A stretch of DNA of 64,000 nt, taken from assembly GCA_027459625.1 (NCBI GenBank), contig DAIDHP010000006.1:62001-126000 (forward strand), written 5' to 3'. The position numbers and the translations under genes were made by a program. Positions 41,460-47,069 of the stretch are shown in pieces. The notes beneath the pieces are model-generated. The model was not told the DNA's origin, did not search any database, and saw only the letters and a list, made by a program, of their open reading frames with translations. This stretch comes from Chthonomonadales bacterium. Its GTDB lineage: Bacteria > Armatimonadota > Chthonomonadetes > Chthonomonadales > CAJBBX01. Position 1 is the stretch's first letter. Each line of letters starts with the position of its first letter.

Positions 41460-44400
41460 TCAATTCCATGGCAGGTGGTTTCTAAAAGATACCGTTCCAT
41501 TCAAATAGGAGAGGATTTTCTTCGCCGCGTTGACATACGATTCCGGGGTGGCGGGAATGATCGTCACACTATGGTTGTTGTTTCCGACAAGCAGATGGTT
41601 GCCATGCGGGGAGTAATCCAACCAGTTAATAACGCCCGCTTGATTTTGAATAAGCATGATGGGATTAGCCATTCGATGTTTTTTCCAGGAGGCAAGCACA
41701 TCGCTCACGTTCCAAATTCGGATCGTCCCATCCATTCCACCGATCGCAATTTTATCCCCCTTGCGATTGAAAACCGCGCAAAGGGCTTCGCCCAACCCGC
41801 CTTGTATCTTTCCAATGAGGGTGCCGGTGTGCGAATCCCAAAAATAAACGTGATGATCGCTATCCGCAGCAATGGCGATTTTTCCATTTGGCGAAAAACA
41901 CGCCATATAGGGATGGTTTGATATTTGCGTGAAATAACCCGCCACTCTTCCCGAGGGAAGCAAACGAAATAGAATTCGACCGGTTTTGGCATCCCAGATG
42001 ATGGAACTTCCATCCCTGCTGGAGGAGATAATGCGCTTTGCATTCGGCGAGAACAGAGCGGTGTAAATGTTGGCTAAATGCCCGGTCATTTTAATGATGC
42101 GCGCGCCGGTGCGAACATCCCACAGGCTAATCGAGCCATCATATCCGGCGGTGAGCATGATCTTGCCGTCGGGCGAATACTGAACCGATTCAGCAGCGCC
42201 ATCGTTCGTATGAAACTGCCTAAAAACATCGGGACTGCCCGAGTAATAGGTGACTCGCCAAATTCTTATCAAGCCATCCACGCAAGCCGCTGCAATCTCC
42301 TTTCCATCAGGAGAAAGGTCGCAATATGTGATCGCGGATGGAGAAACCACACTCATTAGGGGATAATTTTTCTTTCGGTTGATGATGTTGAGATCACCAC
42401 CATGGGAGGAAAAATAAAATTCATCGCCTTTCTTGTTAAATGAGACATCGCTAATAACGGCTCCGGTGCTAAATTGAATCTGATTTGTGAAGAGCCACAC
42501 TTTGGCGGTATGGTCCTGACTTGCCGTGACTAACTCCCGGGAATGGGGGGAAAAGCTCGTCGCCATCACCGGTCCTGAGTGAGCGTCAATCGTGTATATT
42601 GGCGATTGATTTCCATCGGTGGCCCACACAAATGCAAGATTGTCCTTGCCCCCCGATGCCAGATAAGTGTGCATTGTCGATCCCTCCACATCCCAAACCC
42701 AGTCCCTTTGTCCGAGATAGTTTTTATATATCCGGTTCTCACGCCATTCCCACGCTCTCACCATGCCTGACTTATCGGAAAAAAGAATTAGACTGTTGTA
42801 CCATGCGAAGTTGACGCAAAGAATTGGCGCGGGGCTGTTGGGCGCAGCATATTGAGTGCCATTCGTAAAACTTTTCAGCAACATGCCGGTTTTAAGGTTC
42901 CACACTTTGATGATGCCATCATTTCCTCCCGTGACAACCTCCTGGTCATCATGTGAAATCGCCACCGACCAAAGGAATGTCATATCCATTTCGGAAGGAT
43001 TCTTGCAGAGAAGCCAGGAAGTGTGATTATGCAAATCATAGACCCGCGCTGTAAACATCAAATTATGCATTGCGACGGTTACCACGTACCGGCTATCATC
43101 CGATATGGCGGCAGTCATGACGGGAATATGTGAATCGGGTGGCGCGGTCCATACAGGCGTTCTACGATCTGACACGCCCCCTCTTGCATTCCATAATTGC
43201 ACGCCGGATTCATCGCTTGCGGTTAAAATGTACTGGCCGTCTCTGCTAAAAACGGCAGAGTTGATGTTTTGGACTGCATTCGGATTCCTTTGAACGAGAA
43301 GAGTTTGTAACAGTTTGCCGTTCTTCGCATCCCAAATATAGGCGTATTTACCCTTTCCGGCTGTTAGGATGCGATGAGCATTATGCGAAAAGGAGGCGCA
43401 GAAAATGGGAACGGGATGTTTCAATGTCAGACGAAGGAAAATTCCTCGGTTGACTGCATTCGCCAAACCCTCCACAGCCGTTAACGAAGGGCGTTGATGC
43501 TGTCTTAACGCAGGCTCCACCGCTCTCAATCCGTATTCCAACGCCTCCACTCCCGTGGAGACGTTAGTTGCGAACGCTGAGGCTATGCGCCCGGACATTG
43601 AATCGATGTAAAGAGCGTCCTTTCGACTCCGTTCTCTTTCCAGCTTCACCTCGTTTTTTTGCAATTGGAATTGCGTTTTAAGACGATGCGTGGAGTTATA
43701 AACGAAACTCAATTGCCTTTCCGCAGTGGTTTTTTTGCGTCGGGCGTCGGACAGGAAAGTCATCTCTCCTCTGATGGCGGATTTCAGTTTATTAATACCC
43801 GTTTGGAGAATAACGGTGCTGTGAGTGAGTAGTCTGTTTTGAAGCATGACGCGCTTGGCATCCATCTCCGTTTGTTTGGCGTATATCGTTTGATGAAATG
43901 CAAACCAAACAAGAATAAGCATTAACAACCAAAAAATGGTGGCTCTTAAAAATCCTACGGTTTCCGCTTTCCTTTGACGCCGCACCTCCTCTCCGGGCAT
44001 ATTGGCGTATATCCATTTTTTGGAGAACACTCGCTTGTATATTCTATTCCGGGAACGGAGTATTCCGTCCTCCTCCTTTACCACGCCTGCCAAACGCAAT
44101 ATGCTCGCCATGATATCCGTGGGCTCAAAACGAATCGGCGTTTTCCCCTTGAGGATTTTCGCATAGAGGAGCAAGATATTCACTTGATCGACTCCCTCCT
44201 CCTGGAGAAGGAAACGATTTCTTGCGAAAGCGAGGTTATCATCCATGCGCTCCGCTTGGGGGGTGAGAAAGGTTGCGGAACAAATCCGATCCACATCGTG
44301 CGGAGTGCGGGATTCCGAATCCTCCACGACGGCGCGGCATAATCGTTGCGTAAGATACGGATGCCCTCCGGTCCAATAAAGGATGCGTTTGATCAGCGTC

Positions 44401-45110
44401 TGTCCACTGCGCCCCGTCGCCTCCAATCCCTTCATTAAAGGTGTCACCTCCTCCTCGGAAAAGTCCGAAAGGTCGATGCGGTGCCCGATATTGAATGGAG
44501 TGGTGTAGGGATTTCGGATGAGATTTGATGGAATGGCGACACCAAGAAGGCAAAAGGTCAACCGCTCCATTTTCATTTGTTCGCTCCGTCGGTTGGCGCA
44601 TTCGCGTATCGCTGCGAAAAATTCATCCGCGGAGAAGGGGAGGCTTCTTACGGTGTCAATCTCATCCACGAAAATGACCAAAGGGGAGGGATCGTTAGCG
44701 AGGATGATATCGCGTAGCGCCGACATCCAACGTTGCACCGGGCTTAAATTGGTGTTAGAGACCCAAAAATCCTCGATTCGAGCATCCAAGTTGAACATCT
44801 CCGCAATGGAGTAAAGCAACCCAAAGTACCACTGCTCAATGGATACGTTTTGCCCTAAGGAGGAGAGGTCCAGCACTGTCACTCGCACTCCGTCGTTTCG
44901 AAGTCGGGACGCCACTCGCACCATGAGGGATGATTTGCCCACCTGTCGAGAATCAAGCACATAGCAGAACTGACCGGAGGAGAGAGAATGATATAAATCC
45001 TCGTCCGCTTTTCTCGCCACGTACGATGGGGCTTCCGGCGGAAGCGAACCACCAGTGATAAAATATGAAGACGATTGTAATGAAAAATTATCGTTGGTCT
45101 TCATGCTCAC
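41460..45110 (-). CDS. Membrane-anchored AAA_35-like ATPase with about 14 WD40 repeats
   Basis: 1216 residues. Residues about 17-340 form an AAA_35-like NTPase: opening ITGGSLPPEAPSYVARKADE, Walker A DSRQVGKSS (53-61), Walker B LVIFVDEID (144-152), and the family's YWTGGHPYLTQRL near 245. One membrane helix lies at about 387-409, with positive charges (RRQRK) before it, so the ATPase should be cytoplasmic and the rest outside. A coiled coil (about 412-500) and about 14 WD40 repeats (575-1195; for example AAACVDGLIRIWRV, TAGYDGSISLWDV) follow, enough for two seven-bladed propellers. GTG 45110 is used; AAGG overlaps the upstream stop. The regulator gene with a homologous ATPase ends 12 bases upstream. 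The ligand is unknown. Confidence 0.85.
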   Translation of the reverse strand: MSMKTNDNFSLQSSSYFITGGSLPPEAPSYVARKADEDLYHSLSSGQFCYVLDSRQVGKSSLMVRVASRLRNDGVRVTVLDLSSLGQNVSIEQWYFGLLYSIAEMFNLDARIEDFWVSNTNLSPVQRWMSALRDIILANDPSPLVIFVDEIDTVRSLPFSADEFFAAIRECANRRSEQMKMERLTFCLLGVAIPSNLIRNPYTTPFNIGHRIDLSDFSEEEVTPLMKGLEATGRSGQTLIKRILYWTGGHPYLTQRLCRAVVEDSESRTPHDVDRICSATFLTPQAERMDDNLAFARNRFLLQEEGVDQVNILLLYAKILKGKTPIRFEPTDIMASILRLAGVVKEEDGILRSRNRIYKRVFSKKWIYANMPGEEVRRQRKAETVGFLRATIFWLLMLILVWFAFHQTIYAKQTEMDAKRVMLQNRLLTHSTVILQTGINKLKSAIRGEMTFLSDARRKKTTAERQLSFVYNSTHRLKTQFQLQKNEVKLERERSRKDALYIDSMSGRIASAFATNVSTGVEALEYGLRAVEPALRQHQRPSLTAVEGLANAVNRGIFLRLTLKHPVPIFCASFSHNAHRILTAGKGKYAYIWDAKNGKLLQTLLVQRNPNAVQNINSAVFSRDGQYILTASDESGVQLWNARGGVSDRRTPVWTAPPDSHIPVMTAAISDDSRYVVTVAMHNLMFTARVYDLHNHTSWLLCKNPSEMDMTFLWSVAISHDDQEVVTGGNDGIIKVWNLKTGMLLKSFTNGTQYAAPNSPAPILCVNFAWYNSLILFSDKSGMVRAWEWRENRIYKNYLGQRDWVWDVEGSTMHTYLASGGKDNLAFVWATDGNQSPIYTIDAHSGPVMATSFSPHSRELVTASQDHTAKVWLFTNQIQFSTGAVISDVSFNKKGDEFYFSSHGGDLNIINRKKNYPLMSVVSPSAITYCDLSPDGKEIAAACVDGLIRIWRVTYYSGSPDVFRQFHTNDGAAESVQYSPDGKIMLTAGYDGSISLWDVRTGARIIKMTGHLANIYTALFSPNAKRIISSSRDGSSIIWDAKTGRILFRLLPSGRVAGYFTQISNHPYMACFSPNGKIAIAADSDHHVYFWDSHTGTLIGKIQGGLGEALCAVFNRKGDKIAIGGMDGTIRIWNVSDVLASWKKHRMANPIMLIQNQAGVINWLDYSPHGNHLLVGNNNHSVTIIPATPESYVNAAKKILSYLNGTVSFRNHLPWN

Positions 45111-45122
45111 GCGATGATTGCC

Positions 45123-46904
45123 TTATATTTTCTTTTTCAGATATACCGCATACAGTTCGCAACGTGGCTGTGCATTAAGGGGGGATTCTCCGCTTAAAAC
45201 ACCTGCGCTTCGCAGCCTGAAGAATGCCTCCTCCGGACAACTCTTTCCGGTGAGCGTCGCCTGCATCGCACTGAGGAGTTCGGAATCCTCTCGAATAAGA
45301 GAGGTCATATGCCGTAGGTGATCACCAAAGGGACCGTTGTCCTCCTCGGATTGGCGAATGAAGGAGTGGAAGTCCTCCTTTTTAAGAGTTAACTCATAAA
45401 GACCGCGTCTTACAAGATATGGGTGTCCGCCCGTCCACTTATAAAACTTTTCCATTTTTCGATCGTCATCGAGGATTGAATCGTGCAGTTCATTGAGTTT
45501 GGAGATATCCGCGTAAGTGAAATCCTCCAATGTGATCCTTGTGCCCACGTTGAAAGGCGACTTGTTGAGATCACGGATATATAGATGGGCCTCAGTAGCC
45601 AATGCGAGGGCTATGGAGAGTCGCCGCCAAGGTTTTTGCGGTTCCAAACTGCGTTTCTCGTGCCAGGCGCGTAACATGGAGAAAATCTCCCCGTTGAAAG
45701 GATATTTGAATAACCTGTCGACGCCATCCATTCCCCATACCAACGGAGTCTTGAGGCTTGGTATGGTCACCTTGATAACAAATTGCTCAAGATTGAAAAT
45801 TGGACTATGCAAGGGGTTCCACCTTAGGATGTCCGGTGTTTGAATGTTCAGTTGCGCCGCCATCATCTCCATCAGTGAGCGGCAAAGGCTTTCCATGGAA
45901 TTGAAACTTGACTTGTCCAATATCTCGAAATTGGTGACAAGCGTTTCGGCTCCGCACTCCCGGGCGGTCTGCATCGCGCGAGCCAGAAGGGAGGATTTAC
46001 CGCTTTGGCGTGATCCTTTGATCACGAGTAAGCTATCCATTTCAATAATGGCGTTTTTCGTGATTGTATCCACATATCGTTTGATATAATAATGGGAGTT
46101 GAGGGGTTCCGCCCCCCCTACCGATTCGTTCTGAGAATCGGGAGAACCATCCCCATTTGAATATACATTTTGATTTTCCACTATTTCGATATACTTTCTT
46201 ACCATTGATTTGGAAGGCTCGAGCCCGATTGGTTTTAGGTAATCGGTGTATCGATTGAAAAGGTTGATCGCTCTGATGCGCTCCCCGTCTGCGATCATCA
46301 TCCCCATCAAATCGTTCCATCCGTTTTCCTCTGACGGATTGTTCTTCACGTATAGCGTTTGGAATCTAATGGAATTCGCATAATCCCTTCGCTCCATCGC
46401 AATTTTAGAGAGTGTATGCAAGGCGTTCAAATAGTCCATCCTGTATTTCTCTCGATAATCCATAATCCAAGGATCGTTCCATTCCTCCAATAGCGGAGCG
46501 GTGTAAATTTTAACCGCTTTTTGCAAGGAGGAGATTGTGTTATCCTCAATCAATTTGGAGAAAGCGAATATGTCCGCCTCAATCCCCTCTGTGTTAAATC
46601 CTATGGATCCCCTGTCCCTGGTGATGCGTTTGGACTCCTCCCCTAGATATCCTCTAAGGTTGGATATGCATTGCCTTAGTGAATCTGATTTCGTATCCTC
46701 CGACCAAAGGGAGTCGAGCAGATACGTGTTGGACACCTGCTTCCCTTTTTTCATTACAAGGAAGACAAGAAGCCTGTCCACTCCACGCGTCTCCATTTTT
46801 TTCAACTGCGCTCCATCCACGGTGAGTTCAAAGGAGCCGAATAGTTTGATTTTGATCATCATAATCGATTGATGAAGCCCTATACCGAGCATTCCATGTT
46901 CCAT
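45123..46904 (-). CDS. SARP/BTAD-type transcription factor fused to an AAA_35-like ATPase domain
   Basis: 593 residues. MIKIKLFGSFELTVDG (from residue 16) begins an OmpR-type winged helix as in SARP/BTAD activators, with LRQCISNLRGYLG as recognition region. A TPR-like BTAD domain follows (about 108-245). Residues about 265-590 are homologous to the ATPase of the next gene: Walker A IKGSRQSGKSS and FYKWTGGHPYLVRRGL. The Walker B segment reads PLVWGMDGVD, so the catalytic Glu is Gly. Family comparison favours starts at residues 15-16 (46862 or 46859), though no ribosome site marks them. Architecture recalls AfsR (SARP plus NTPase), but with a different NTPase family. Tandem repeats for self-regulation lie at 46950-46971. 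Confidence 0.8.
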   Translation of the reverse strand: MEHGMLGIGLHQSIMMIKIKLFGSFELTVDGAQLKKMETRGVDRLLVFLVMKKGKQVSNTYLLDSLWSEDTKSDSLRQCISNLRGYLGEESKRITRDRGSIGFNTEGIEADIFAFSKLIEDNTISSLQKAVKIYTAPLLEEWNDPWIMDYREKYRMDYLNALHTLSKIAMERRDYANSIRFQTLYVKNNPSEENGWNDLMGMMIADGERIRAINLFNRYTDYLKPIGLEPSKSMVRKYIEIVENQNVYSNGDGSPDSQNESVGGAEPLNSHYYIKRYVDTITKNAIIEMDSLLVIKGSRQSGKSSLLARAMQTARECGAETLVTNFEILDKSSFNSMESLCRSLMEMMAAQLNIQTPDILRWNPLHSPIFNLEQFVIKVTIPSLKTPLVWGMDGVDRLFKYPFNGEIFSMLRAWHEKRSLEPQKPWRRLSIALALATEAHLYIRDLNKSPFNVGTRITLEDFTYADISKLNELHDSILDDDRKMEKFYKWTGGHPYLVRRGLYELTLKKEDFHSFIRQSEEDNGPFGDHLRHMTSLIREDSELLSAMQATLTGKSCPEEAFFRLRSAGVLSGESPLNAQPRCELYAVYLKKKI

Positions 46905-46949
46905 AGTATTTTACTCGGGCGAAAGTGCGAATTGACCCAAGATCGGTTA

Positions 46950-46971
46950 TTGTCACAATTCTGTCACACTT
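46950..46971 (-). promoter_or_regulatory. Tandem 11-base repeats, candidate SARP operator
   Basis: TTGTCACAATT (46950-46960) and CTGTCACACTT (46961-46971) match at 9 of 11 positions. On the minus strand the core reads TGTGACA twice with starts 11 bases apart, the heptamer spacing reported for SARP binding sites. They lie 46 bases upstream of the first possible start codon. A canonical -10 box downstream is not evident. Confidence 0.55.
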
Positions 46972-47027
46972 TACCCTAAGAATTTGCGGGAAACCATATC
47001 CATCCAAGTAAACACCGCGCACCTACT

Positions 47028-47069
47028 CAAATAAGAAAGCCAAGGGATTTCCCATGGCTTTCTTATTTG
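47028..47069. terminator. Long bidirectional terminator
   Basis: CAAATAAGAAAGCCA (47028-47042) pairs perfectly with TGGCTTTCTTATTTG (47055-47069), and inside it GGG pairs with CCC around ATTT. T-rich or A-rich flanks exist on both sides. It terminates the MFS gene on the minus strand and insulates the SARP-type gene from it. Confidence 0.75.

Follow-up and report, generated by a model that had tools for sequence, protein, structure and literature searches.

A SARP-type regulator and a membrane WD40 protein with paralogous AAA_35 ATPases: one variant of a modular sensor/output gene pair found in several phyla

Whether two adjacent genes encoding ATPases of one family, one ATPase joined to a DNA-binding half and the other to a membrane helix and WD40 repeats, work together as a signalling unit is the question raised by a locus in the 64,000-nucleotide stretch of a Chthonomonadales bacterium contig analysed here (the window). 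An earlier note made from the letters had placed the unit at 41460-46971; both ORFs exist, but the end at 46971 takes in DNA upstream of the first gene. In the ORF list the two genes, hereafter R and S, lie on the minus strand with the 12-base gap that had been noted, share one reading frame, and encode the following products.

45123..46904, minus strand: R, output protein of 593 aa with a SARP DNA-binding half and an AAA_35 ATPase (ORF, Pfam, AfsR/EmbR match)
41460..45110, minus strand: S, membrane sensor protein of 1216 aa with a GTG start and the order AAA_35, transmembrane helix, coil, WD40 (ORF, Pfam)

R may start at 46904 or at an internal ATG near 46862 (MMIKIKLFGSF), the latter perhaps being the more likely. 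R and S are the sole AAA_35 genes of their own genome, and both are under purifying selection: compared with the copy found in the same genus, their dN/dS values are 0.14 and 0.17. The neighbourhood of the pair is metabolic, stable and syntenic, and is wholly conserved within the same genus.

Pfam matches resolved R into Trans_reg_C (1.6e-6), BTAD (6.6e-8) and AAA_35 (5.9e-67), the last (PF14516) scoring 226 bits in R and 98.6 bits in S against a cut-off of 27. The OmpR-type winged helix is followed by BTAD, the order of the SARP/AfsR family, and this N-terminal half matches the solved AfsR SARP (2e-17) and EmbR (5e-16), as expected from the OmpR/BTAD-type half that the earlier note had assigned to one of the proteins.

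46590..46856, minus strand: OmpR-type winged-helix DNA-binding domain of R (PF00486, AfsR profile match)
46182..46538, minus strand: BTAD domain of R (PF03704, 6.6e-8)
45135..46115, minus strand: R-type AAA_35 ATPase domain, Walker A intact (PF14516, 5.9e-67)

In Pfam searches, R ended with AAA_35 and lacked the sensor repeats that, in large SARPs of the AfsR type, form one polypeptide with SARP and NTPase. S matched AAA_35 (4.1e-28, residues 21-363) and WD40/beta-propeller families. The AAA_35-like ATPase that had been read in both proteins was thus recovered by Pfam in both, each keeping Walker A (RQ.GKSS) and WTGGHPYL.

44025..45056, minus strand: S-type AAA_35 ATPase domain, Walker A and B (VDEID) intact (PF14516 4.1e-28, fold search)
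43956..43997, minus strand: juxtamembrane motif PGEEVRRQRKAE, S-family form PxAExRRQRxAYRRG (conservation across the S family)
43896..43952, minus strand: single transmembrane helix of S, residues 387-405 (hydropathy; same position in nearly all S)
43431..43895, minus strand: helical/coiled region from membrane to propellers (sequence reading; position between flanking features)
41559..43418, minus strand: 13 WD40 repeats detected, probably 14, in two propellers (Pfam, repeat HMM)

The about 14 WD40 repeats claimed earlier agree with the repeat HMM, which detected 13 at residues 565-1184 and a gap fitting one more (13-14 in all). Hydropathy likewise located the single membrane helix that had been proposed, at residues 387-405. 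Among S proteins very different in sequence, nearly all have the transmembrane segment at a near-constant distance after the AAA domain, with a mean hydropathy of about 2 and preceded by the conserved basic motif. Because the single helix follows the ATPase and provides one crossing, the WD40 part would probably lie outside the cytoplasm, and the outward orientation suggested in the earlier note was upheld at that same strength by the topology check. WD40 proteins are mostly cytoplasmic, and the positive-inside bias in S is modest (5.3 vs 3.7 K/R), as it might be if the hydrophobic segment were not a membrane helix and the propellers stayed inside; we judge this quite unlikely, given that nearly every S has a segment of hydropathy about 2 at this position and that a conserved basic motif precedes it.

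To what class of ATPase do the shared domains belong? Walker A and B together with the GxP motif of a winged-helix region are a hallmark of STAND ATPases, a further trait of the class being oligomerisation induced by a signal. TGGHPYL has the form of this GxP motif, which was found in 40/40 S and 45/48 R. A model of the AAA_35 ATPase, of moderate confidence (pLDDT 62.5, pTM 0.52), gave the archaeal STAND-like ATPases 2qen and 2fna as best Foldseek matches, followed by ORC/Cdc6; further matches were Avs3, Avs4 and RPP1, an NLR of plants. On the strength of the matches to archaeal STAND proteins, Avs3/4 and the plant NLR, AAA_35 appears to be of STAND type. In contrast to the paired R and S, 2qen and 2fna were solved as single proteins that have no sensor/output pairing. 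The two domains are also not fully equivalent, which qualifies the earlier description of a shared ATPase: both are AAA_35, but Walker B of the window R reads MDGVD, with Gly in place of the catalytic Glu. Across 60 pairs the Walker A Lys was present in all R and all S, whereas the Walker B catalytic Glu was kept in 60/60 S but only 40/60 R (Fisher 3e-7). Since every S retains this residue and a third of R lack it, hydrolysis may be the indispensable task of S, with R binding nucleotide and following its partner.

A survey of 201 genomes drawn from the phylum of the window, which its gene content suggests to be Armatimonadota, found AAA_35 in 37, and the loci from these genomes contained 82 R-type and 82 S-type ORFs. 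Adjacent R/S pairs numbered 61, in 29 genomes, and occurred as R>S (38), S>R (14) and convergent (9) arrangements; adjacency persists though gene order changes, which points to a pair kept by selection rather than merely inherited as an operon. Of the R and S genes outside pairs, many lie at contig ends and some inside contigs, and in genome G172 the only R and the only S share a chromosome but are distant from each other. No natural R-S fusion was present among the surveyed ORFs.

In a mirror-tree comparison, the ATPase distances of R and S partners were correlated with r = 0.83, compared with 0.64 ± 0.07 (sd; maximum 0.77) for 2000 within-genome re-pairings, and deep comparisons only, with close relatives removed, gave 0.81 vs 0.63. 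The partners therefore track each other past species history, and co-evolve beyond the relatedness of their genomes. That R and S are chance neighbours inherited together would fit the whole neighbourhood being conserved in the same genus, but the pairing recurs in three gene orders, amid dozens of unrelated neighbourhoods and in several phyla, and this explanation, rejected by the pair survey, the mirror-tree and the R/S clade split described below, is left with practically no probability. A conserved target operon beside the pair was likewise considered and rejected, as no neighbour gene family recurs widely among the pair loci. MoxR-vWA ternary conflict systems have MoxR and vWA core genes; no MoxR, vWA or VMAP component was noticed at the loci.

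Beyond the phylum, the same R/S neighbours were found on plasmids of Nostoc, Tolypothrix, Leptolyngbya, Planktothrix, Calothrix, Acaryochloris, Chlorohelix and an abditibacterium, where one R-type gene (ATPase usually C-terminal) adjoins one S-type gene (ATPase usually N-terminal). A tree built from 80 ATPase domains placed all 40 R and all 40 S in separate clades, each spanning the phylum of the window, Cyanobacteria, Chloroflexota, Abditibacteriota and a viral contig. Because each clade holds all of these phyla, the duplication that gave R and S is placed by the tree before the spread of the module. The claim that R and S form a functional unit is thus borne out by the 61 adjacent pairs, the mirror-tree excess and the two mirrored clades, and the pairing is conserved in relatives in three gene orders and in several phyla.

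The output halves of R proved to be exchangeable. In the 60 analysed pairs, SARP (40), TIR (10) and nucleotidyl cyclase (5) were the main types, the rest being others, and CHAT, trypsin with TIR, TIR with HTH, kinase with LuxR-type HTH, alpha/beta hydrolase and HTH outputs were found elsewhere. The sensor end of S is usually WD40, and also TPR, CHASE2, PAS/GAF or WD40 with amidase. Gene order tends to follow the output type, with R first and S first in a ratio of 32:4 in SARP pairs and 1:8 in TIR pairs. The SARP/WD40 pairing described earlier is therefore real but was drawn too narrowly, being one variant of a two-ATPase chassis with swappable outputs and sensors: among the forms of this ancient, modular sensor/output pair, the one in the window has transcription as its output.

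A candidate operator lies upstream of R, within a stretch conserved in the same-genus genome.

46951..46968, minus strand: TGTGACAGAATTGTGACA, 7-bp direct repeat with 11-bp period upstream of R, a candidate SARP box (motif comparison across pairs)

Counted as TGTGAC-N5-TGTGAC with up to two mismatches, a motif picked after the window site had been seen, the repeat occurred upstream of 8/39 SARP-type pairs, compared with 6/506 control neighbour genes and 0/20 non-SARP pairs; the effective number is slightly below eight because two of the eight share one genus. Only period 11 stands out in the enrichment at SARP-type pairs. In its own genome, the other strong copies were confined to G000:C5:66531-66559 and G000:C41:17908, the latter fully conserved in G001. 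Both are GTCAC-type repeats on the opposite strand, followed 11 bases further on by a -10 hexamer, and their downstream genes are, in one case, an Ig-like lipoprotein gene and, in the other, a small conserved gene ahead of ParA-like and glycogen-synthase-like genes. The window box has the opposite orientation to these two promoter-like sites.

Proteins other than R could bind the box. The geometry of a Pho box is TGTCAC-N5-TGTCAC followed at this spacing by a -10 hexamer, and this is what the other strand of the repeat reads, with the hexamer in place at the two other loci. The genome encodes five OmpR-type regulators, in addition to a second BTAD protein, and a PhoB-like response regulator owning the repeat, with R as one gene of a phosphate-type regulon, is a possibility that we rate only a little short of even. 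The restriction of the enrichment to SARP-type pairs speaks against it, as do a relative in which the box precedes another SARP gene and adjoins a further one, and the inspected sites, where no pho or pst gene was recognised. The assignment of the candidate box to R is thus a lead only, because the orientation differs and another BTAD or PhoB-like regulator could bind. Past the box, in the direction leading away from R, the conserved island continues (46968-47066) as far as a hairpin close to where an MFS gene ends, and possibly gives a short plus-strand transcript; a search for a small RNA on the plus strand beside the box returned only sub-threshold Rfam matches.

The reading that we favour, with moderate confidence, is that sensor ATPase S and output ATPase R work together, with a signal passing from the S propellers to a switch of R and on to SARP binding at 11-bp repeats. 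The two ATPases would be paralogues of one STAND-type AAA_35 family, and S would be anchored in the membrane, its ATPase facing the cytoplasm and its WD40 propellers the exterior. At rest, the ATPase domains of R and S would be engaged and the SARP half of R restrained. A ligand on the propellers would alter the nucleotide state of S, whose hydrolytic machinery, unlike that of its partner, is always retained, and this change would switch ATP-bound R, whose SARP half could then pair up on direct repeats spaced by 11 bp and recruit RNA polymerase.

AfsR of Streptomyces (SARP-NOD-TPR) offers a precedent, as it too joins a SARP half to a STAND-type NTPase. Its SARP is inhibited by the NTPase part until ATP is bound, and the SARP dimer sits on two 11-bp direct repeats over the -35 region (PMC10936776), comparable to the 11-bp period of the candidate box. 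AfsR is, however, one polypeptide with its own TPR sensor, whereas R has its sensor on another ATPase, membrane-anchored and encoded by the adjacent gene, and its own NTPase, unlike that of AfsR, is AAA_35. Two-component systems similarly encode a membrane sensor together with a DNA-binding partner, but they rely on a histidine kinase and a receiver, and Pfam found neither domain in R or S.

The physical contact between the two ATPases, as well as the direction of control, is what we infer here, and R and S might instead serve one pathway without touching, S signalling otherwise (for example through its propellers or a third protein) and R doing no more than regulate transcription of the pair. 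Such an arrangement would suit the candidate box upstream of R and the R and S genes that are unlinked. A fused R-S model, in which the R stop was read through, was of low quality (pLDDT 48.5, pTM 0.35) because its alignment was limited to the window and related-locus sequences, and it gives no proof of contact. Nevertheless, homologous ATPases are kept in both proteins in two mirrored clades across phyla, and outputs that do not bind DNA (TIR, CHAT, cyclase) pair with the same S type, so that transcriptional control cannot be the common link. We consider the no-contact arrangement unlikely.

As to purpose, the whole module may be a phage-defence or conflict system, its SARP variant triggering a defence or stress response once S detects an invader or damage to the envelope, which is compatible with the mechanism proposed above. 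TIR, CHAT and trypsin outputs, plasmid neighbours that include restriction, toxin-antitoxin, NACHT and CHAT genes, and the fold matches to Avs3/Avs4 and RPP1 favour this purpose. So does a TIR/TPR pair (TIR-AAA_35 and AAA_35-TM-TPR) lying between tail-type genes of viral contig IMGVR_UViG_3300031236_000894 (L147 7515-11095), possibly the module as phage cargo. On the other hand, the window pair resides in a stable, syntenic metabolic neighbourhood, the viral contig was the only one with the module among 2.9 million (the same one in repeated scans), and no annotated phage carried it. A PADLOC 2023 search gave no strong system match, the weak ones being confined to WD40 or P-loop regions. Defence as the purpose is, in our view, possible but less likely than not.

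Plant NLR pairs follow a paired sensor/executor logic. Avs3/Avs4 and plant paired NLRs resemble R/S in combining sensor repeats, a STAND-type ATPase and an exchangeable effector, but R/S splits sensor and effector over two ATPases, anchors the sensor in the membrane and, in the window, has transcription as its output. NTP-dependent conflict systems (PMC7159879) and STAND antigen sensors (PMC10907252) likewise place swappable TIR, caspase-like and trypsin effectors on an NTPase and are described as common in multicellular bacteria; AAA_35 is not named in the searched text of either. In the open-access literature, no paper naming PF14516 was found, and AAA_35 with WD40 retrieved unrelated papers only and nothing on the R/S pair. 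The module is thus apparently undescribed, provisionally so because the literature covered was open-access only. Because it recurs across several phyla with exchangeable outputs, the two-part design has the look of a modular signalling system, so far undescribed, that resembles the paired immune receptors of plants. The wider proposal is that bacteria of different phyla share a family of STAND ATPases that work as sensor/executor pairs, much as paired NLRs do in plants: a sensor ATPase anchored in the membrane would control a partner ATPase, and the output half of this partner would have been exchanged repeatedly among TIR, protease, cyclase, kinase and transcription factor. This proposal seems to us evenly balanced. 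If true, STAND signalling would not be confined to single proteins, sensing and output being split over two co-evolving ATPases, and bacteria would possess a plug-in system that turns an outside signal into an immune-like enzyme activity or transcription. STAND ATPase crosstalk would then be directly testable in a small two-protein system, and the family would be a place to seek new defence systems and the signals of many bacterial WD40 membrane proteins.

Several further arrangements were observed among the loci. S-type genes with no R neighbour occur in L139 (3940-7056) and L112 (4568-10317), the latter having two S-type genes in tandem, and R proteins in L123 (7714-9885) and L125 (3351-5546) have an unclassified N-terminal half of about 370 aa. 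On Gloeothece and Fischerella plasmids (L214 1354-7098, L215 1381-7158, L218 1393-7098), the S-type ATPase is C-terminal in proteins of about 1900 aa, one of them annotated as a serine/threonine kinase, which represents an alternative wiring of the S partner.
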